Virus record (IMG/VR): IMGVR_UViG_3300009285_000974 | Span: 1-33,519 of that record | DNA from: a virus | Direction: 5' to 3' (one strand) | Length of the DNA: 33,519 nt | Part shown: one piece after another, positions 4,017-23,852 of the stretch | Position numbering within the stretch: the stretch's first letter is position 1 | Layout of the letters: every line of letters begins with the position of its first letter | Notes under the pieces: model-generated | The model's input: only the letters and a program-made list of their open reading frames with translations | Told to the model about the DNA's origin: nothing | The model's database searches: none | Position numbers and translations under genes: made by a program

Positions 4017-4475
4017 CTAAAATCCACACTTGGTGCATACCTGTGCCGAACTAATGAACAATTGAATTGTCTTCGTGGCCGCCCCGCACTTTACGCACGA
4101 AGTCTGCCCATCGTTGTTGCGCACGGCTCTAGGCTGGGGGGCAATCTCGGGCTCGGGAAACTCCTCGCCAAAGAGATTCTTCATAGCAACCTGCGCCGGG
4201 GACGGGAGCGGTGCTTGCGTTATGGATTGCCCAATGGGCTGGATTGGTAGATTGAATGGAACGCCATGAAGGGTACAAAACTGGCCCAGGGGAGAAGTAG
4301 CTCCTACCTTGGGGTGCGAAAGCCACGGCGTTACCGACAAGGCATAGCCTGCCAACGGGGCAAGCCAGACATAATTATCGGGGGTATAGGCTACCTTATG
4401 CAACTGGCCCCTCGTGTCCTGGTAGAAAGGGATGAGGAAGTGTGCACCCAGCCGTTTCAAGTCTACACCCGTCAT
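4017..4475 (-). CDS. Hypothetical protein with C-terminal zinc ribbon
   Basis: This encodes 152 residues. The N-terminal 75 residues form an unrecognised domain rich in aromatic residues and Pro (LIPFYQDTRGQLHKVAYTP, YVWLAPLAGYALSVTPWL). A Pro/Gln-rich linker follows, then a ribbon with CVKCG at about residue 128 and CTKCGF at the extreme C terminus. A terminal ribbon of this type usually contacts nucleic acid or a partner protein. The start has AAGGAG seven bases upstream. It follows the 64-residue Cys-rich gene by 13 bases and lies downstream of the amidotransferase/amidoligase pair, so a link to that pathway is possible but unproven. Confidence 0.7.
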   Translation of the reverse strand: MTGVDLKRLGAHFLIPFYQDTRGQLHKVAYTPDNYVWLAPLAGYALSVTPWLSHPKVGATSPLGQFCTLHGVPFNLPIQPIGQSITQAPLPSPAQVAMKNLFGEEFPEPEIAPQPRAVRNNDGQTSCVKCGAATKTIQLFISSAQVCTKCGF

Positions 4476-4488
4476 GGTTAACTCCTTG

Positions 4489-4683
4489 TTAATCTTGACA
4501 AATCTGGCACAGGACTACTATACCCCCGCCCTTTTCGAGCCATTGGGCTACCTGTGTCGTGTTCCCACAGCACTCACACGTTCCTACATGCCATGCGCCC
4601 GGCCCCGAGAGTTCCGGGGGGCCCTCACAGTGCGTCAGCAGTCTAACCTTACGAGCGAGCTTCCCTGTCAGTTTGCGGATCAC
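4489..4683 (-). CDS. Small Cys-rich zinc-binding protein
   Basis: The 64-residue product has a basic N terminus (MIRKLTGKLARKVRLLTHC) and two Cys pairs, CECC and CQIC, about 18 residues apart, consistent with a zinc finger. Its ATG overlaps the stop of the glutamine amidotransferase gene (ATGA), so it is translated together with it. It may be a small accessory subunit of the amidoligase system; this is inferred from coupling only. Confidence 0.7.
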   Translation of the reverse strand: MIRKLTGKLARKVRLLTHCEGPPELSGPGAWHVGTCECCGNTTQVAQWLEKGGGIVVLCQICQD

Positions 4684-5489
4684 GTTTCACCACTTTGCAT
4701 CCACTGCTGGGCCCATTCTTCGTCTGCTGCATCCTGCTGCTTAGCAAAGGCCTCATACTCGGGCAGGAGAAACCGGGGGCTCGTAACGACTTTGGCATTA
4801 GCCCGGTCAATAGCATCATTAGCGGCCTTGGCGAGCATATTCTCGGTCTCGGGAGCGGCGACGGGGCTAGGCTTTGTCCAGTGCTTCTTGTACTTCTTGG
4901 GCGAGTCGTACTGGCCAAGCCCTGAGTACACATAGGCGCTCTCGGCTGCCCGTTGCCAATGGAGATTACTAGCCCAGAGCCCATCGCCAATCGAGCAAAA
5001 GTCCCCAACCTTGTAGAGGCGGGTTGGGGTTAGCACGACAAACTTTCCCGCCCCCGTGGCCGCTAGCTCCCTAACTAGTTCATCATTGCGCAGTCGAGAA
5101 TGGACCCATGTGATAAGGCGAGAGTCACTCCAGGGGCCCGGACTGTCTGGAGTGCCTTTCGCGTTCCAATGTCCCTGGTGGCCATTGTGGAAGAGCACGC
5201 CCTGGTCCGTGTCCCCTCGCAAGTCCAAGCTGGCCTTATCGTCCAAGGGGAATGGATGGGTCAACTCCGCGCCTTTGCCCCCAACGGTGGCAAACCGGAC
5301 GTGCATAACATAGGGCTGGGGCAGACACTTCGCCATGCTCATCATGGTCGGCAGATTGAGCCCCTTGTGCCAGCGCACGAGCCCATTGTGGACCCAAGCG
5401 GCCCCACCACCGTCCGAGTTATGCTCCCAAGACAGCTTGAGCTGCTCTGGTGTAACACGGCCCTTGTCGCTCACGAATATAACGCACAA
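4680..5489 (-). CDS. Class II glutamine amidotransferase (Ntn-hydrolase fold)
   Basis: The family hydrolyses glutamine with an N-terminal Cys and passes ammonia to a synthetase. I place the start at TTG 5489: AGGAGG lies six bases upstream and overlaps the previous stop, and the second codon is then Cys2, exposed once Met is removed. An in-frame ATG at 5525 would bury this Cys at position 14. Matching motifs in the 269-residue product are NSDGGGAAW (24-32), HVRFAT with Arg65 (63-68), THP (77-79) and LFHNGH with Asn102-Gly103. There is no fused synthetase domain; the C-terminal 100 residues are helical and unassigned. The coupled upstream amidoligase is the obvious ammonia acceptor. The family call is strong; the partner is inferred. 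Confidence 0.8.
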   Translation of the reverse strand: MCVIFVSDKGRVTPEQLKLSWEHNSDGGGAAWVHNGLVRWHKGLNLPTMMSMAKCLPQPYVMHVRFATVGGKGAELTHPFPLDDKASLDLRGDTDQGVLFHNGHQGHWNAKGTPDSPGPWSDSRLITWVHSRLRNDELVRELAATGAGKFVVLTPTRLYKVGDFCSIGDGLWASNLHWQRAAESAYVYSGLGQYDSPKKYKKHWTKPSPVAAPETENMLAKAANDAIDRANAKVVTSPRFLLPEYEAFAKQQDAADEEWAQQWMQSGET

Positions 5490-5499
5490 GACGGGCCTC

Positions 5500-6369
5500 C
5501 TAGGTATTTGTACAGTCGATTTCAATCTCGTCGCAGGTCACAATATTCTCAGGTTGCTGAAAACTTCGTCCACCCGCAAGCTCTTGTGTGGCCGAAAAAG
5601 TCCACTCTGCGGGCTCGGCCTCTTTAAGGGTAGCCCTGCTGTTGTACTCTTCAGTGAACTCCAAGACTTTCTTGAAGTAACGAGTGGTCTTGGGTATAGC
5701 CGTGCTCCTATCGGCACACCAGCCCTCGACGAACTTGACCCAGGCCTCAAGAGCCGCCACGGCCAAGTTAGAATCGAGGAACATTGGGAGCAGGCGCAGC
5801 TCAAGCGTGCCGTGCATAGCATGACAATAATTCACACCCGAGTAGCGCACTGAAGCTTTTGACTTCAGACGGACTTGCTCGTCGGGCTGATAGTCGCTCC
5901 GACAGAACAGGGACTCGTTGGCCAATCTGTGCCAGAAGGGCTCCTTTGCCGGGATGGCCTTTTCCTTGCCCCAGGCAGCCCAAAAAGTATAAACAGCTTC
6001 AAAGAACCTCCGCTGCATTAGGCGTTGGTAATGACTCGGCCGCGTCATGCTGATGTGGATATGAAAGCCACAGTTATCGTCTGACGCCCACTTCGTGGGC
6101 AAAATATCCGGGTAGGTACCCAAGAGAAAGGCCTTAGCCTTCTCAAGGTCTTCATAGGCCGAACTTGGCAACTCGCCTTTCCAGCCCCCTGCCCAAGGGT
6201 GCCTCTCGTCAGGGCCTCTACATTCGTGCTCGAACAAATGGACTGAGCCATCCCCTGTAAACAGAGTCCCGTATTCCCCTGCAACTTTGCAGGCCTTCTT
6301 ATGGGCCTCTGCCGTCCAGCCACCCTCTAGCTCGAAGCCTACCTTGTTAATGAACTTTCCAAGTGGCAT
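5500..6369 (-). CDS. Amidoligase (glutamine synthetase/GCS-like COOH-NH2 ligase family)
   Basis: The 289-residue protein carries the three signatures of the putative amidoligase family: VGFELEGG near the N terminus (Glu13, Glu15, metal/ATP ligands), DNCGFHIHIS (His103, His105) and VNYCHAMHGTLELRLLP (Glu190, Arg192). These enzymes form amide bonds between a carboxylate and an amine or ammonia using ATP, acting on small molecules, peptides or proteins. The start has AGGAGG five to six bases upstream. The stop codon lies inside the ribosome-binding site of the glutamine amidotransferase gene, so the two are made together. The substrate cannot be read from sequence; a cell-wall peptide, a host protein or a metabolite are all possible. 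Confidence 0.8.
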   Translation of the reverse strand: MPLGKFINKVGFELEGGWTAEAHKKACKVAGEYGTLFTGDGSVHLFEHECRGPDERHPWAGGWKGELPSSAYEDLEKAKAFLLGTYPDILPTKWASDDNCGFHIHISMTRPSHYQRLMQRRFFEAVYTFWAAWGKEKAIPAKEPFWHRLANESLFCRSDYQPDEQVRLKSKASVRYSGVNYCHAMHGTLELRLLPMFLDSNLAVAALEAWVKFVEGWCADRSTAIPKTTRYFKKVLEFTEEYNSRATLKEAEPAEWTFSATQELAGGRSFQQPENIVTCDEIEIDCTNT

Positions 6370-6379
6370 GACGAGCCTC

Positions 6380-6853
6380 CTAGCGGAAAATCTTGATTGT
6401 AGCCTTCATCGTGGTCTCACGCATGTACTCACGATAGAGCTTGGCCAGCGAAGTCTGTGCGACCTCGTACAACTTGGTGCCCTGCTCTTCCGAGTACAGG
6501 CCTGAATAGGTTACCTTAACCGGTCCCACCGCAGCGGACTCATGACGAAGAATGGACAAGTTACACTCGCTAATCCTTATCATGTACTCAGGTCCGGTGT
6601 TGTAATGCTGAAGACAGGGCGGAAATCCCGTATTACACTCGTCGACGTCGAAGAGGACCTTGCCCTCGCTTGGCCAGCCCGCACGGACTGCACCCATCCC
6701 GTCTTGCCATCTCTTGAACACATGGCCCTGCTCTATGAGCCACTTGTGGACTTCAGGGGCCAAAACGCTCAGAGTCAGGCCCTTGACGTTCCGAACGACA
6801 ATGATTTCGTTGATGACGGGGATTTTAGCCTCGCCTTGTACCGTGATAGCCAT
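6380..6853 (-). CDS. Hypothetical protein upstream of the amidoligase
   Basis: This encodes 157 residues with alternating beta and helical character: IPVINEIIVVRNVKGLTLSV, HKWLIEQGHVFKRW, GKVLFDVDECNTGFPP, and a C-terminal helix LAKLYREYMRETTMK. There are two Cys residues in CNTGFPPC and no recognised catalytic set. A clear CAGGAG precedes the ATG, and a structured leader (6865-6940) lies just upstream. It ends ten bases before the amidoligase start, so it is in the same transcript and could supply or carry the substrate; that is only a positional inference. Confidence 0.7.
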   Translation of the reverse strand: MAITVQGEAKIPVINEIIVVRNVKGLTLSVLAPEVHKWLIEQGHVFKRWQDGMGAVRAGWPSEGKVLFDVDECNTGFPPCLQHYNTGPEYMIRISECNLSILRHESAAVGPVKVTYSGLYSEEQGTKLYEVAQTSLAKLYREYMRETTMKATIKIFR

Positions 6854-7730: not shown

Positions 7731-8285
7731 TTAAGCTCCATACCGTGTTCTAAGATAGTCCTGCCACCATTGCTCTTGCTTTGTCTTTTCGGCTGCGTGG
7801 GCTGTGTGGGCTGCGTAGGCTGCTGCGTTGGCTGCGTTGGCTGCGTCGGCTGCGTTGGCTGCGTGGGCTGCGTAGGCTGCGTTGGCTACGTTGGCTACGT
7901 TGGCTACGTTGGCTACGTTGGCTGCGTGGGCTGTGTGGGCTGCGTGGGCTGCTACGTTGGCCTCTTCAGAGCACCAACGGGCAAAGTCAACAAATGCCTG
8001 CTTATCAAGACGGTACTTACGAATAGCCAAGCGCCGCTTTCCAACGGCCTTGTCCAAGTGATAGTGCATCTGCCCTTGAAGACGAACGCTCCAAAGTATG
8101 GGCCCACAGTTAAAGGACAAAGCATCAATGATTCGGGGACTAGCATGCATCCCTGTGATGCACATTACAGGCGTACCTTTGGCTGTGAGCCAATGGCCTT
8201 CTTGGACTAGTCGGCCATCGCCATGTGTCAACTTGCAGTCCTCGGGCGTGAAATGCCACATAGCCTCGTGTCGTTTGGTCTTCAC
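7731..8285 (-). CDS. Phage protein with DUF7666-like N-terminal domain and Ala-rich tandem repeat
   Basis: The 184-residue product has an N-terminal domain (about 10-100) with FTPEDCKLTHGDGR, GHWLTAKGTPVMCITGMHAS and a basic VGKRRLAIRKYRL segment, resembling the small domain I know as DUF7666 in phage and bacterial proteins. Residues about 112-168 are an Ala-Ala-X repeat (AAHAAHTAH, ANVANVANVANV), followed by a short charged tail. The start is GTG at 8285: it overlaps the stop of the 47-residue membrane gene (GTGA), which favours it over the ATG eight codons later. Function is unknown; the repeat probably forms an extended helix. Confidence 0.65.
   Translation of the reverse strand: MKTKRHEAMWHFTPEDCKLTHGDGRLVQEGHWLTAKGTPVMCITGMHASPRIIDALSFNCGPILWSVRLQGQMHYHLDKAVGKRRLAIRKYRLDKQAFVDFARWCSEEANVAAHAAHTAHAANVANVANVANVANAAYAAHAANAADAANAANAAAYAAHTAHAAEKTKQEQWWQDYLRTRYGA
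7791..7960. repeat. 9-bp tandem repeat encoding the Ala-rich helix
   Basis: About eighteen units of the form GGCTRCGTN read on the plus strand, sixteen of 9 bases and two of 12 bases. Four consecutive units are identical (GGCTACGTT). All length changes are multiples of three, so the minus-strand frame stays open. Such arrays expand and contract by slippage. Confidence 0.9.
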
Positions 8286-10183: not shown

Positions 10184-11113
10184 CTAAAATTTCGGCTTTA
10201 ATGGGCCCCAGTCGACCCGATAGGGCTCGGGAGTGGCCAAGAGGGACACATCAGAAGTCTTCTTTTTCAGGGGGACTACAGCTCCGACTTGATAAAAGGC
10301 CTTGAATTTTTCCTTTTGGGCAGCTGAAAGCTGCGGAGCACGGACGGGTTTAGAAAAGAGGGCGTGATGCTTGATATTTCTGGGGGTTTTTTTGGGCTCG
10401 GTACGGAGTACCTCAAGGCGCTTCCGGTCGAGTTCACGGCGCTCGGCTTGGAGAGCCTTGAAGTGGCTGGACTCCTCCGGGCCATCCTCCGGGGCTAGAT
10501 GGCGAAGATGCTTCGGAATGAAGTCTCGGCGACAAGTTCCGCTAAACTTAAAGGTTTTATTGCGCCGTTTGAGTTCCTCAACAACAATGGGTTCCATTTC
10601 AAGGGGAAGGCAATCGCAACCTTTACGCTTATTGCACGCCTCGCAGCACCAGACGAGGTTCTCGAAGTTAGTCAGGCCACCAAAGGCCTTGGGAAAAACA
10701 TGGTCCGCCTGAAAGGGGCCTTGACGAGAATTGCAATAAAAACACTGGTGTAGATCTCGGGACTCCAAAGAGGGGCGGTTTCGCTTACCCATCCCGAAAT
10801 TCCCAGATAAAGCGTAATGTTTCTCCCGGCATCCATCCGAACAGTAGAGGTGCCGCGTGTGCTTTGGGAGGAAGTCTTCGGCACAGCCGAGGCAGGAAAT
10901 CTTGTCGCCCTCCCAGGGATGGATTTGGTCTCGGGGGCGAGGAGTGGCCAAGTGCTCGGGACAGCGGGTGTACTTGATGTCGAACTCGCCCTCGAAATTG
11001 AGTTCGCAGTGCTCACAATCCTCGGCGACGAGTAGGAACTCGACCTTACGGGGGTGGTCAAAGAAGGGAGACTTCGGATTTATAAGGGCTTTCCAAACGC
11101 CTTTGTTGATCAT
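10184..11113 (-). CDS. HNH endonuclease with extra zinc-binding modules
   Basis: The 309-residue protein has a clear HNH core: CFYC (124-127), ADHVFPKAFGG with Asp137-His138, LTNFENLVWCCEACNKRKG with Asn149, Asn152, Cys157 and Cys160. Two additional Cys/His modules precede it, CEHC/CPEH (33-54) and CLGC/CSDGC (74-95). The C-terminal 130 residues are basic and probably bind DNA. Such genes cut DNA as homing endonucleases or assist phage DNA packaging. It stands alone, oriented away from the terminase and next to the candidate origin. A consensus promoter ends six bases before the ATG and there is no Shine-Dalgarno sequence, so the mRNA is predicted to be leaderless. A free-standing homing role is my preferred reading. 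Confidence 0.85.
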   Translation of the reverse strand: MINKGVWKALINPKSPFFDHPRKVEFLLVAEDCEHCELNFEGEFDIKYTRCPEHLATPRPRDQIHPWEGDKISCLGCAEDFLPKHTRHLYCSDGCREKHYALSGNFGMGKRNRPSLESRDLHQCFYCNSRQGPFQADHVFPKAFGGLTNFENLVWCCEACNKRKGCDCLPLEMEPIVVEELKRRNKTFKFSGTCRRDFIPKHLRHLAPEDGPEESSHFKALQAERRELDRKRLEVLRTEPKKTPRNIKHHALFSKPVRAPQLSAAQKEKFKAFYQVGAVVPLKKKTSDVSLLATPEPYRVDWGPLKPKF

Positions 11114-15157: not shown

Positions 15158-15592
15158 ATGAGTAAGCACCTAGAGCGGGCCCTTGGGCTCGCTGATGAAC
15201 AGCCTGACACTAGTGAACTCACTATTCAAGACTACCTCGGCGGCGCAGAGGACTTGGACGCCCCGATGGAAAATCCCGTGGCTGATGCCTTTGCTAGTAA
15301 TACCGAGGTCTCGGACGAGTACGAAAATCCTATTGAGTCCAGGGGCCCCGAAGACCCGGAGTTGGGCGGGCCAGACCCAATCTTCGAGCCCACTGAAGCC
15401 TTGAGTGGGTTTGAAGACGCGGACTTAGCCCTGCTCGATGACGAAGAGTCCCCATCCGACGACATGCGCCAGGCCTTGACACAAAAGTTTATTGAAAAGG
15501 CAAAAGAGCGCCTACTCAACTCTCAGCGTTTTCAAGATAGAGCGGACATGCTCAACAGGGGTAGCACCGAGGAAGAGGGGAGCGGACTATAA
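15158..15592 (+). CDS. Hypothetical acidic protein upstream of the portal
   Basis: The 144-residue product is very acidic (DEYENPIESRGPEDPELGG, ALLDDEESPSDDM) and largely disordered, ending in a basic helix (KFIEKAKERLLNSQRFQDR). Its stop overlaps the portal start (TAATG). It may be a small head-assembly or portal-associated factor; only position supports this. Confidence 0.65.
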   Translation: MSKHLERALGLADEQPDTSELTIQDYLGGAEDLDAPMENPVADAFASNTEVSDEYENPIESRGPEDPELGGPDPIFEPTEALSGFEDADLALLDDEESPSDDMRQALTQKFIEKAKERLLNSQRFQDRADMLNRGSTEEEGSGL

Positions 15593-18024
15593 TGCCGGCC
15601 TCAAGAAATTCAATCGACCCGACTGCAATTCTTCAGGGCTACACTGAGCCTGAGCAGAAGCCGCAGATTCGTGGAGAAGAGCAGGAACTGCTCACTGACC
15701 TCGAAGACCGCTTCCAGGGCGCTTATGAGGCGCGCATTCCATACGAGAGGGATTGGGAGATGTATCGCCTTTATCTCAAAGGCGAGCAGCTCATTATTCG
15801 TCACAAAGATTCAGGGGAGGTAGTCCGTGTCACGTCGGAAGATTCTAAGCGTCTCAGGAGTGTGCTCAATATACTCAGACCCACTGCGCGGTCACTCATT
15901 GGGAAGCTCACGCGCTCCATTCCGACCTGTACGGCCATTCCGGCCACAGCCGACTTCAATGAGCAACACGGAGCCAAAGTCGCCGAAGCCCTCCTCCAAT
16001 ATGCTCGACGCAAAGAAAATCTGGACCTCAAGTACCTAGAGGCCAATGAGTATTTACCTTGGGCGGGCAATGCGATTTTACAGCTCGCTTGGAATAAACT
16101 AGGGGGTCGCAAACTCGCCTTTTGTCCGGTCTGTGGCTTCAACGACTCCGACCAGGACATGATTAATGCTCCCTGCCCCGCCTGCCGAAACCAGCGAAAG
16201 ATGGAACTGGCCACGCAGAAAATGGAGCACGAGACTGCCAAGGCTATGGCCATGCTCGGGGGCGTGCAGCACGAAGCTGTACTTAATCAGGGGGCTGACC
16301 AGGCGGTTCAACAGGCCGAGTCTAGTGGTTTGCCAATTGAAGACGTGGCGGGCTCAATGGACGTGCCCCAGGCCCCCCCTGGCCCAGATTCTATTCCCCT
16401 TCCACCGATGAAGCAGGGTGGGCCTCTCCCGCTCGAAAAGGAGCCGGGCCCCTTGGTCGAAGCCTTCGAGGGTGACTTCGAGGTCTACGTCCGAGACGTG
16501 CGTGGGTTCTACATTGAACCCGGGTGTGTGAGCATCAAGCAGGCCAATTGGTGTTGCTATCGAGAGGCCCTCCCTGTTCCAGAAGTTCGCCGGATGTTTC
16601 CCGAGTGTGCCGAGTGGATTGCGGCCGACCCGAGTATTCACACAGATAGGACGGCCGAGCTTCGATATAATGCCCTCGTTGTGTCGGGAATCCAAACTCA
16701 GCTCCGGGACCACTGCTACGTCAGGGAGTACCACGAGCGGCCAACGGAAGCATATCCCAAGGGCCGAATTATCTACGTAGTCGGGGACCGTATTGCGCGC
16801 ATCGACAACGAGAGTCCCTATAACATTTTGGGGCGCTTTCCGTTCTACCATATGGGCTTTGACAAGTCCATTGGTGAGTTCTGGCACGAGCCATTCATTG
16901 CCCAAGCTTGGCACCGTCAGCGGGAATTGAATAATATCGAGACTCAAATCCGAGAGCATACCGAGCTTGCCCTGAAGCCCAAGATGCTCAACCCAATGGG
17001 CTCGCGCATCAGTCAGGACGAGATTACGGCCAACTCGGATCAAATTATTAAGTACAACGCTAATGCCGGCATGCCGACCTTCCTGGTTTGGCCTCAGTTG
17101 GCTCAGCAAGTGTTCGAACGTAAGGCCGAGCTTACGGGAGACATTCGACTTCAAGCTACAATCACTGGACCCGAGATGGGCGAGGCCGGCTCCGACCCCA
17201 ATGGGCGCGCGATGGCCATCATTGAAGCCGAGGCTGACCAGCAGTTGGGCCCAATTTTGCTGCGGAATCACAACGAGTGGCGCGAAATGCACCTCGGAAT
17301 CCTCAAGCTTTTCAAGCAGTATGCTCACCCGGACCGTAAGTGGTCTATTGCTGGCCCCGAGGGTGTAGAAATCTACTCATTTGACGAACTTATCCTTTCG
17401 GATGGGTTCGACCTTCAAATCGAGCAGGAGGACGGCCTTTCAAGAAACCCGAGCATTCGACTGCAACAGGCGGCCGACTTGGCCAACTTGCCTATTGGGC
17501 TGTTCGTTGACCCAATGACTGGCATACCAGATAAAAAGTCCTTCATCCGGTTCGCCAAGTTGAAGATGCCCCAGGGCGGGTATGACATTGAGGCCACGGA
17601 GCGGTCCGCTGCGGCTCAGATTCCTAAGCTAATTCAGCAGGGTATCATGCGCCCCCCGCAGATTGAGGACGACCCCATGCTTTTTGCTGAAGTTCTGCTG
17701 GGTTGGCTCCGTGGTCCCGGCCGAAAGATGGAACAGCAGAACCCCATGGTGGTCATGCAAGTTCGTCAAATTTGGCAGATTTACGCGATGTGGGCCATGT
17801 CGGGGCAGATGCCCGGCGTAATGGGGGCCCAGACAGGCCAACCAATGGCCCCTGGGGGGCCACCAGCGGCCGGTAGTGACATGAGCAGCCCCGGGGGGTC
17901 ATTCAATGACCCGGGCCACATGGGAACTGTTGCTATGCAAGCTGGAGCCCAAGTAGGCCAAGCCGATGCTATGGGTGAAAGGTCGGCTCAACAGGCCACG
18001 GGCCAGTCCAAGCACGAAAGCTAA
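15592..18024 (+). CDS. Portal protein (large, P22-like class)
   Basis: The 810-residue protein sits between terminase and scaffold. It has the features of large portals: an N-terminal wing with PYERDWEMYRLYLKGEQ and RPTARSLIGKLTRSIP, a central region WHEPFIAQAWHRQRELNNIE, the clip/stem part GEAGSDPNGRAMAIIEAEAD, and a Gln/Met/Gly-rich C-terminal barrel-like tail (from about 720). A four-Cys zinc ribbon (Cys178, Cys181, Cys195, Cys198) is inserted in the wing, followed by a Pro-rich loop (about 245-285). Twelve copies would form the ring at one capsid vertex through which DNA enters. The size, near that of P22-type portals and larger than HK97-type ones, fits a podovirus. Confidence 0.88.
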   Translation: MPASRNSIDPTAILQGYTEPEQKPQIRGEEQELLTDLEDRFQGAYEARIPYERDWEMYRLYLKGEQLIIRHKDSGEVVRVTSEDSKRLRSVLNILRPTARSLIGKLTRSIPTCTAIPATADFNEQHGAKVAEALLQYARRKENLDLKYLEANEYLPWAGNAILQLAWNKLGGRKLAFCPVCGFNDSDQDMINAPCPACRNQRKMELATQKMEHETAKAMAMLGGVQHEAVLNQGADQAVQQAESSGLPIEDVAGSMDVPQAPPGPDSIPLPPMKQGGPLPLEKEPGPLVEAFEGDFEVYVRDVRGFYIEPGCVSIKQANWCCYREALPVPEVRRMFPECAEWIAADPSIHTDRTAELRYNALVVSGIQTQLRDHCYVREYHERPTEAYPKGRIIYVVGDRIARIDNESPYNILGRFPFYHMGFDKSIGEFWHEPFIAQAWHRQRELNNIETQIREHTELALKPKMLNPMGSRISQDEITANSDQIIKYNANAGMPTFLVWPQLAQQVFERKAELTGDIRLQATITGPEMGEAGSDPNGRAMAIIEAEADQQLGPILLRNHNEWREMHLGILKLFKQYAHPDRKWSIAGPEGVEIYSFDELILSDGFDLQIEQEDGLSRNPSIRLQQAADLANLPIGLFVDPMTGIPDKKSFIRFAKLKMPQGGYDIEATERSAAAQIPKLIQQGIMRPPQIEDDPMLFAEVLLGWLRGPGRKMEQQNPMVVMQVRQIWQIYAMWAMSGQMPGVMGAQTGQPMAPGGPPAAGSDMSSPGGSFNDPGHMGTVAMQAGAQVGQADAMGERSAQQATGQSKHES

Positions 18025-20521: not shown

Positions 20522-21046
20522 ATGTCGAGAAAAAATCTAGTGGCCCCAGATGTGGGCTGTCCACCGTTGCTGATTCGCCAAGTGCGAATTCCAACGGCAG
20601 ACGTGCTCACTCTGAATGCCACACCGTTCCTGCTCGTTCCCGCCCCGGGTGGGTTTGACCAGGCGACCTATGGCACGGCAATCGTCTTGGACATAGAGCA
20701 GACGAACAATAAGGCCCTTCTGTTCGAGAAGGCCATTGTGAACGTCGTTAAGGGCTCGGGCGCGGGCACAGCCTACGACGCTAGTGGTGACGGTCTGCGG
20801 GTTCAATACGCGGGTGGTGGGACGGCTGTTTCGTTCGTCTTTACGGATCCGCTTAATGCCGCGACGGCTGGGACAATCTTTGTCCTAAATCGCTGTGGCA
20901 CGGAAACGGCGACCCAAACAGTGCCCGCTTCTTTGACCCCCAATAAGGGTCTTGAGTTGACAAATGTTACGGCCGAGTTGACCACGGGTACGCACGACCT
21001 CATCGTGACTACGTTCTATCGAATCATCGAACTGAAGGGGAGCTAA
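20522..21046 (+). CDS. Small virion protein, paralogue A of a three-gene array
   Basis: The 174-residue beta-rich protein has GGAGG seven bases upstream of its ATG. Its core (ALLFEKAIVNVVKG, GLRVQYAGGG, GTETATQT, THDLIVTTFYRIIEL) aligns along its length with the products of the next two genes, so the three arose by tandem duplication. Position directly after the coat gene suggests a capsid decoration or head protein. There are no enzymatic motifs. Confidence 0.7.
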   Translation: MSRKNLVAPDVGCPPLLIRQVRIPTADVLTLNATPFLLVPAPGGFDQATYGTAIVLDIEQTNNKALLFEKAIVNVVKGSGAGTAYDASGDGLRVQYAGGGTAVSFVFTDPLNAATAGTIFVLNRCGTETATQTVPASLTPNKGLELTNVTAELTTGTHDLIVTTFYRIIELKGS

Positions 21047-21047
21047 C

Positions 21048-21518
21048 ATGGCCGCTACAGCGATGGACCAATTGAACGAGCCGTGTTCAATTGGGCCCCT
21101 TCAGTGTAGTAAGACTTTGCTCACGGCCGCTGAGTGGAAAGTCCTGAACTCGACCAAGAAGGGCCTTGTTCCGAGTCCCGGTCCCGGTCGAGCGATTCTC
21201 TTTGAGCGGGCCTATATTAACATCATCGGCGGTGCTACGGCGGGCGATACGGACGGGAATCTGTCCATTCGTTACACGGGCGGAACAGGCGATGATGTTT
21301 CTCAGGCGCAGGACGACTTCCTGAATGACTCGACCAAGGGCGGTCTTACGATGCCCATTGAGCGAATCGGAACGGAAACGACAACGCAGACCTTGGGCTA
21401 TCTGCAAGATAACTTGGGCCTTGAGTTGTATTCGGCCAGTGACCTGTCGGGCAGTGCGGGCGATTTCACCCTCGAAGTGGTGGTGTTCTACCGCCTCGTC
21501 GAAATGACGATTGGATAA
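21048..21518 (+). CDS. Small virion protein, paralogue B
   Basis: The 156-residue protein shares AILFERAYINIIGG, LSIRYTGGTGDD, DDFLNDSTKGG, RIGTETTTQT and LEVVVFYRLVEM with its neighbours. AAGGGGAG stands eight bases before the start, which follows the previous stop by one base. It is the paralogue closest to C in the central DDFLND segment. A decoration role is inferred from context. Confidence 0.7.
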   Translation: MAATAMDQLNEPCSIGPLQCSKTLLTAAEWKVLNSTKKGLVPSPGPGRAILFERAYINIIGGATAGDTDGNLSIRYTGGTGDDVSQAQDDFLNDSTKGGLTMPIERIGTETTTQTLGYLQDNLGLELYSASDLSGSAGDFTLEVVVFYRLVEMTIG

Positions 21519-21522
21519 AGCC

Positions 21523-22032
21523 ATGACTAGACGAGGTGGAAAAACGGGCATCCCGAGGAAGAACCAAGAACTCGCGGATATGGGCATTGGGCCGTTGATG
21601 TTTAGAACCATTACCATCGCGCCCGACACGGGAACAGCTCAGATGCCCTATTGGCAGATTGACTTGTCGTCGACGCCCATAGAAATCATCCCAAAGCCGG
21701 TCAGCAATAAGGCAATCCTCGTTGAGCGGGCCTTTATTAAGATGGGGCCCGGCGATGATGGCTGCGCTACTGATGGTGACCTCCTACTGCGATACAAGAG
21801 CGGGACGGGAGATAACCTGACCCAGGCCGTGGATGACTTCCTGAATGATGCAACGTCAGGAAAGGTCATGACAATGGAGGCTGTGGGCACGGAGGCCGAG
21901 CCACAGACGGTTGGGTTTCTTCAGCCCGATTTGGCAGTTGAGTTGTACTCTAGCACGAGCTTCGCGGCTGCCGCTGGTACGAACACTATTACCGTCACAG
22001 TGCTTTATCGCCTGATTGACGTGAGGTACTAA
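21523..22032 (+). CDS. Small virion protein, paralogue C
   Basis: I start at ATG 21523, four bases after the previous stop; a TTG at 21511 would overlap the upstream gene. The 169-residue product has a basic N terminus (MTRRGGKTGIPRKNQEL) absent from B, then the shared core AILVERAFIKMG, LLLRYKSGTGDN, DDFLNDATSGK and ITVTVLYRLIDV. The added basic arm might contact the capsid or DNA. Confidence 0.7.
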   Translation: MTRRGGKTGIPRKNQELADMGIGPLMFRTITIAPDTGTAQMPYWQIDLSSTPIEIIPKPVSNKAILVERAFIKMGPGDDGCATDGDLLLRYKSGTGDNLTQAVDDFLNDATSGKVMTMEAVGTEAEPQTVGFLQPDLAVELYSSTSFAAAAGTNTITVTVLYRLIDVRY

Positions 22033-22819: not shown

Positions 22820-23158
22820 ATGGCCGCTACGCTTACCAAGCAGAAGATGAAGATGTTCTTCCCGACCGCGATGGAGGAGTGCTACTACTCCACCCTCGTA
22901 CCGGGTGTGACCGTCACGCATACCTTGCTCAATCAGATCAACCTGTGTCCCTTCCGGGTCATGTTTGAAGTAACTACTCCGGCAGATGACTTGTCCCCAG
23001 TGTTTTGTGCCCACGTCGAAGATAGCTTCGACAGCACAGACGGGGCCAATACCATCGCCCTCGTGTTTGACACGGTGGTTGGTGGCGATTTGACGGGCGC
23101 TGTTGTTAAGGTTTTCATTGAGCACCTGAGCCAGGCCTCTGGTGGCATCAGCGCGTAA
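22820..23158 (+). CDS. Small virion protein, first of a second array
   Basis: This encodes 112 residues starting MAATLTKQKMKMFFPTAMEE. Length, strand pattern and the C-terminal ASGGIS match the next two proteins, though the N terminus diverges. GTGGAG is about ten bases upstream. It is probably a distant paralogue; a head-decoration or fibre role is a guess from position. Confidence 0.65.
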   Translation: MAATLTKQKMKMFFPTAMEECYYSTLVPGVTVTHTLLNQINLCPFRVMFEVTTPADDLSPVFCAHVEDSFDSTDGANTIALVFDTVVGGDLTGAVVKVFIEHLSQASGGISA

Positions 23159-23168
23159 GGGGTAACCA

Positions 23169-23507
23169 ATGGCTTGGTCCTTTGATGGAATTACCAAGGC
23201 GCAGTTTGAAAGCGCAGTGGCCACACATGAGGCCCCCCGTGTCCTTTCTGCCACGCCCTGGTTGGTCAAGATGATTCAGGTCAACCCGGACAGCACGACT
23301 GCAGTGGAGATTCTCCACGGAGAGAGCATCATGCCGGACATCATGTTCGTGAGTGGTGCTATCGACGACCCAGACGCGGCCCAGACTATTTCGCTCTATG
23401 CAGGTTCCACTGCGGCGTACTTGGCAATTGACTGCGGCGGGGCCAGTGCCACAGCCGTTAATGTTTGCCTGATTTGGCTCAATGCCGCGTCGGGCGGGAT
23501 TTCGTAG
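23169..23507 (+). CDS. Small virion protein, second of the array
   Basis: This encodes 112 residues. It aligns along its whole length with the next protein: SFDGITKAQF/SFDGLTQAAF, DSTTAVEILHGE/DSTTAEEVLHGE, PDIMFVSGA/PDVIILNSA and SGGIS/TGGIS. AAGGGG precedes the ATG. No motif indicates an enzyme. Confidence 0.7.
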   Translation: MAWSFDGITKAQFESAVATHEAPRVLSATPWLVKMIQVNPDSTTAVEILHGESIMPDIMFVSGAIDDPDAAQTISLYAGSTAAYLAIDCGGASATAVNVCLIWLNAASGGIS

Positions 23508-23516
23508 GAGATAGTT

Positions 23517-23852
23517 ATGGCATATTCGTTCGATGGCCTCACGCAGGCCGCTTTTGATACCAATACGGCCCTCCATGGGGACCGCCCGGTCGTTATTGCA
23601 AGCACCCCCTTCTTGATTAAGAAGATTCGGGTGGTTGCGGATAGCACTACTGCGGAAGAGGTGCTTCACGGAGAGGCCGAGTTCCCGGATGTTATTATTT
23701 TGAACAGCGCTGTCGTGAATCCGCACGCAGATGGCACCCTGGCGGCGTACCAAGGCACGGCAAAGACGCAGGTCAAGTTCGACGTTGGCGCGGCCGCCAC
23801 GTTTGACGCCTATTTGTTCTGGTTTAGACAAGCTACGGGCGGGATTTCCTAG
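23517..23852 (+). CDS. Small virion protein, third of the array
   Basis: This encodes 111 residues, the paralogue of 23169-23507 with the same SFDG start, LHGE centre and GGIS end, but a more basic central strand (FLIKKIRVVAD) and no Cys. AGGAG lies six bases before the ATG. It is the last gene before the hairpin pair at 23879-23918. Confidence 0.7.
   Translation: MAYSFDGLTQAAFDTNTALHGDRPVVIASTPFLIKKIRVVADSTTAEEVLHGEAEFPDVIILNSAVVNPHADGTLAAYQGTAKTQVKFDVGAAATFDAYLFWFRQATGGIS

Follow-up and report, generated by a model that had tools for sequence, protein, structure and literature searches.

A divergent, stripped-down member of the phage amidoligase–glutamine amidotransferase cassette in a virus contig from IMG/VR

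Introduction

The pairing of an amidoligase with a glutamine amidotransferase (GATase) in phages, together with the hypothesis that the pair modifies the cell wall and acts in superinfection exclusion, has been published for RIO1-like, phiEco32 and LUZ24-like phages (PMC5498523, PMC3890496) and repeated for OM43 phages (PMC10580990); published cassettes with the pair include those of phiEco32, LUZ24/tf, RIO-1 and the OM43 phages. PMC5498523 credits the ‘peptidoglycan modification cassette’ to Iyer et al. 2009 and Hardies et al. 2013. In outline, the bacterial MurT–GatD system is also comparable to the locus described here, with a glutaminase and an ATP-dependent ligase that together amidate a carboxylate (PMC3267633, PMC5871853). 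For the phage members, no biochemical demonstration was found in the literature searched. The MurT–GatD families differ from the phage ones (Mur-ligase fold and class I-type GatD versus glutamine synthetase (GS)-like amidoligase and class II GATase), and the likeness is one of mechanism only.

Here we describe such a pair in IMG/VR record IMGVR_UViG_3300009285_000974, a linear virus contig of 33,519 nt (the window). As in the phiEco32, LUZ24 and RIO-1 cassettes, an amidoligase gene is followed by a class II GATase gene on one strand in the early/replication region; in phiEco32, gp84 (Amidoligase_2) precedes gp83 (GATase_6) in the same order. In contrast, the large phiEco32-type cassette additionally comprises an ATP-grasp protein, a COOH-NH2 ligase and a gamma-glutamyl cyclotransferase, none of which had a Pfam match among the 20 window proteins scanned from this linear and possibly incomplete contig, and the two window enzymes are shorter and very divergent. 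The original prediction had presented the pair as a candidate phage amidation system. The enzyme assignments and the pairing stand, whereas its novelty does not, since such cassettes were already published: the window pair is a divergent, stripped-down member of a known phage cassette and not a new pairing.

Results

Gene arrangement and translational coupling

The features of the locus are, in the order of transcription:

6380..6853, minus strand: 157-aa protein without assigned function that opens the coupled run (ORF, TAGGAGG junction)
6370..6382, minus strand: junction TAGGAGGCTCGTC, in which the ribosome-binding site of the amidoligase gene contains the stop codon of the 157-aa gene (sequence)
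5500..6369, minus strand: predicted amidoligase (GS-like COOH-NH2 ligase, Amidoligase_2-like), 289 aa (phage-derived profile, conserved motifs)
5490..5502, minus strand: junction TAGGAGGCCCGTC, in which the ribosome-binding site of the GATase gene contains the stop codon of the amidoligase gene (sequence)
4680..5489, minus strand: predicted class II GATase (glutaminase domain), 269 aa, TTG start, Cys2 (profile, invariant residues)
4489..4683, minus strand: 64-aa protein with a CxxC...CxxC pair and GTG start, a possible zinc-ribbon partner (sequence)
4017..4475, minus strand: 152-aa protein with a C-terminal CxxC...CxxC pair and an AAGGAG site, of uncertain membership in the run (ORF)

The ORF list and the sequence give the minus-strand order 157-aa, 289-aa, 269-aa, 64-aa and 152-aa gene, and the first four ORFs lie where the original prediction had placed them, with junctions overlapping as it had described. 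At both the 157-aa–amidoligase and the amidoligase–GATase junction the ribosome site reads TAGGAGG with the upstream stop inside it, so that stop codon and next ribosome site share bases; the gap between amidoligase and GATase gene is 10 bp. The start of the 64-aa gene overlaps the GATase stop in the tetranucleotide GTGA. The TTG at 5489, from which a catalytic cysteine at position 2 had been predicted, is found at normal spacing behind GGAGG and encodes M-C (TTG-TGC), the start shared by all 12 aligned proteins. An upstream in-frame TTG at 5525 would yield a 281-aa form, but it is located within the amidoligase gene and does not have this ribosome site. For the 157-aa protein, no relatives were recognised in Pfam, in PHROG or by tblastn in phages.

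Identity of the two enzymes

Queried directly against Pfam, PHROG and PDB, the window proteins gave no match above threshold; hits to ‘Cake’ designed proteins in the PDB-type search were discarded as repeats of one short chance match. Likewise, single-protein scans of IMG/VR yielded no relatives of the amidoligase or the GATase. The matches to Amidoligase_2 and to class II GATase families that the original prediction had named as its check did not come from the Pfam models themselves: the amidoligase alone fell short of the Amidoligase_2 cutoff (E = 0.17), and the GATase alone had no Pfam GATase match and a weak GATase-type match in PHROG (E = 0.074). Profiles built from other phages with the window excluded recovered both proteins, each as the sole match among 611 window ORFs, with E = 9.5e-10 for the amidoligase, whose profile members include the Pfam-confirmed proteins of L001, L003 and L006, and E = 1.5e-18 for the GATase.

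The active-site residues are retained in both proteins. In an alignment of 11 proteins, the window amidoligase keeps GxExE, DxS, HxH, RYxxxN and TxExR, which is more than the three signature motifs first ascribed to it. The GATase keeps Cys2, H-x-R-x-x-T, HPF, HNG and Asp, and the residues invariant across 12 aligned proteins are M1 C2, H63/R65/T68, N102 G103 and D122, among them the glutamine-binding Arg and Asp (R65, D122) and the oxyanion Asn-Gly (N102-G103). Single-sequence AlphaFold2 models of the two proteins reached pLDDT values of 36 and 34 (33.6 for the amidoligase), too low for use. The profile matches and conserved residues support the assignment of 5500–6369 as an Amidoligase_2-type amidoligase and of 4680–5489 as a class II GATase, the support for the folds coming from sequence.

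Linkage of the pair in other phages

When 50,697 phage records were searched by tblastn with the GATase, three matches resulted (28–31% identical), and in all three records an amidoligase lies just upstream of the GATase, two of them matching Amidoligase_2 (8e-54 and 3.5e-30) and the third the amidoligase profile (E = 1.4e-7). Further records were reached from these. We then applied leave-one-out profile searches to 12 phage records other than the window, picked through the GATase alone (L001–L003, L005–L013), a sample partly drawn from related groups whose counts are no census: in 11 of the 12, the GATase has an amidoligase no more than about 5 kb away on its own strand, upstream of it in 10 of those and often at a distance below 100 bp. 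The GATases are mostly 20–35% identical. The pairing noted originally thus receives support from independent gene neighbourhoods. In Stenotrophomonas phage StenR_269, the amidoligase follows the first-found GATase and precedes a second one by 22 bp. Bifidobacterium phage BP742P1 is the sole record of the 12 without an amidoligase near the GATase, and BP677P1 has a weakly matching amidoligase (E = 2e-5) whose reading frame may be broken in the record. In the latter Bifidobacterium phage (L011 1840–3521), the amidoligase-like sequence seems split over two frames upstream of the GATase, which could reflect a frameshift, a pseudogene or a record error.

The gene order of the window, with adjacent or nearly adjacent genes, recurs in OM43 phage MEP402 (PMC10580990), podovirus MW202733, mycobacteriophage Marvin and the Arthrobacter phages Salgado and Ottawa. 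The two genes directly adjoin in MW202733 (5 bp gap), MEP402 (overlap), Marvin (79 bp) and JM_313 (97 bp). When the search was started from the amidoligase, a GATase was nearby in 5 of 11 loci, namely two Arthrobacter phages (Salgado, Ottawa), two Zobellviridae (O4, KZY1) and one faecal contig. In Bacillus and Geobacillus phages, the amidoligase is paired with a gamma-glutamyl cyclotransferase and not with a GATase. A GATase of this type is thus nearly always accompanied by an amidoligase in this sample, while the amidoligase has other partners as well.

Two annotations in these records deserve mention. Marvin gp105 (L007 3560–4921) is labelled as a glutamine amidotransferase domain, yet both Amidoligase_2 (E = 0.001) and the amidoligase profile match it, and the label is likely a misannotation throughout the Marvin cluster. 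The proteins at L002 6001–7218 and L003 6001–6897, annotated as cyclotransferases only, consist of a GATase with a C-terminal gamma-glutamyl cyclotransferase domain.

CxxC segments near and within the cassette

The 64-aa protein has no better Pfam match than DUF6510 at E = 0.019; the original prediction had regarded it as zinc-binding and as a possible substrate or adaptor protein. The CxxC pairs are present, zinc binding is deduced from those pairs, and the role as a partner receives modest support from fusions in other phages. Small zinc proteins are common in phages. Among cassette ORFs of at least 250 codons, 11 of 37 contain CxxC pairs spaced 8–45 residues apart, versus 25 of 286 among the remaining ORFs of these loci, a post hoc count with a rough control on partly non-independent records; about 20 of the 25 non-cassette ORFs match the portal gene of the phage group in size and place. 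The pairs lie N-terminal to the amidoligase domain in MW202733, Marvin, MEP402, JM_313 and BP677P1; Marvin, MW202828 and phiEco32 have them in the C-terminal portion of the GATase. The amidoligases of MW202733, Marvin and MEP402 carry extra cysteine-containing N-terminal regions, whereas the window amidoligase lacks such a region and the locus has a small CxxC protein as a gene of its own instead. As CxxC segments are fused to either enzyme in several other phages, the 64-aa gene may belong to the system and could be the window equivalent of these segments, which we regard as a lead only. No description of such fusions was recognised in a text search of the literature.

The portal-like protein of the window (15592–18024) also contains a CxxC...CxxC pair (CPVCGFNDSDQDMINAPCPACRNQ). 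Most kin contigs have an ORF of portal size with such a pair, and the portal of this phage group may therefore contain an insert that binds zinc.

The phage and its kin

Relatives of the terminase and head proteins of the window are uncultured phages in IMG/VR. Profile searches of the kin loci, collected by terminase and major head protein (L004, L016–L049), recognised neither an amidoligase nor a GATase. In L017 (where the compared region runs to the contig end), L038, L042, L043 and L049, a homologue of the HTH gene that neighbours the cassette in the window is present, and the place of the cassette beside it holds other small genes. From this pattern of presence and absence, the cassette looks accessory and was apparently gained or lost as a unit; as kin phages do without the pair, phages of this type do not depend on it.

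Elsewhere in the window, a 9-bp unit repeated 17.7 times in tandem (7791–7952, within the minus-strand ORF 7731–8285) encodes an Ala/Asn/His-rich low-complexity stretch of a 184-aa protein, and an HNH endonuclease (10184–11113, minus strand; HNH_5, E = 6.6e-10) occupies the distal end of the early run of minus-strand genes. Three successive paralogous genes of structural type (20522–22032; 34–38% identity to the first) are followed by three successive short genes of one apparent family (22820–23852; 111–112 aa, 26–31% identity to the first).

Discussion

We consider it probable that the window encodes a divergent minimal member of the cassette, in which ammonia from the GATase would serve the amidoligase to amidate a host carboxylate to the benefit of the phage. 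We propose the following hypothetical sequence of events: (i) coupled translation in the early, replication-side operon would provide matched amounts of both enzymes, which probably work together in a complex that the small zinc-ribbon-like protein may join; (ii) the GATase would split glutamine via its N-terminal cysteine, exposed by removal of Met1, and hand the ammonia to the amidoligase; (iii) the amidoligase would use ATP to convert a carboxylate into an activated acyl phosphate and then form the amide; (iv) the most likely target would be a host carboxylate, in the published proposal a cell-wall peptide, that is altered during infection to the advantage of the phage. The analysis shows the family membership of both proteins, their active-site residues, the coupling of the genes and their recurrent linkage, whereas ammonia transfer, formation of a complex, the nature of the substrate and the advantage for the phage are inferred.

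A different activity for the same two proteins is conceivable though rather unlikely, namely that the GATase-like protein hydrolyses or transfers gamma-glutamyl groups and the amidoligase makes gamma-glutamyl or isopeptide bonds, so that both together would remodel a peptide. The cyclotransferase domain fused to the GATase in L002 and L003, the replacement of the GATase by a cyclotransferase beside the amidoligase in Bacillus and Geobacillus phages, and the listing of both the GATase and the cyclotransferase among genes for peptidoglycan degradation in one paper (PMC5498523) are consistent with this activity. However, the protein retains the complete class II glutaminase signature (Cys2, Arg, Asn-Gly, Asp), and in almost all cases an ATP-dependent ligase is encoded close to the GATase, as an ammonia donor would require.

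Still less probable, in our view, is that the pair modifies a small metabolite or a nucleotide precursor, including a DNA base precursor, instead of a wall peptide or protein. Class II GATase domains do occur in phage 7-deazaguanine pathways, and the pair shares the replication side of the genome with an AAA-type primase/helicase-like protein. Yet the scan of early proteins recognised no further gene for base modification or nucleotide synthesis, and elsewhere the linkage is to ATP-grasp and cyclotransferase genes. That two unrelated accessory genes became chance neighbours in a compact early operon might be suggested by the unrelated small genes at the same place in kin phages, but is so improbable, with an amidoligase accompanying GATases of mostly 20–35% identity in 11 of the 12 records, that we dismiss it.

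Within the preferred reading, amidation of a host carboxylate by the coupled pair, the smallest self-sufficient cassette might consist of three parts, namely the amidoligase, the ammonia-supplying GATase and a zinc-ribbon module that steers amidation to a specific host macromolecule; this module would be a separate small gene here and fused to either enzyme in many phages. We offer this three-part arrangement as a speculative extension.

In summary, phages of proteobacteria, actinobacteria and gut bacteria repeatedly carry the amidoligase–GATase pair, and its two- or three-gene form without recognised accessory ligases, as found in the window, is a simple object for biochemistry. If the minimal pair amidates alone, its product would reveal the substrate class of the whole family and test the old idea of superinfection exclusion.
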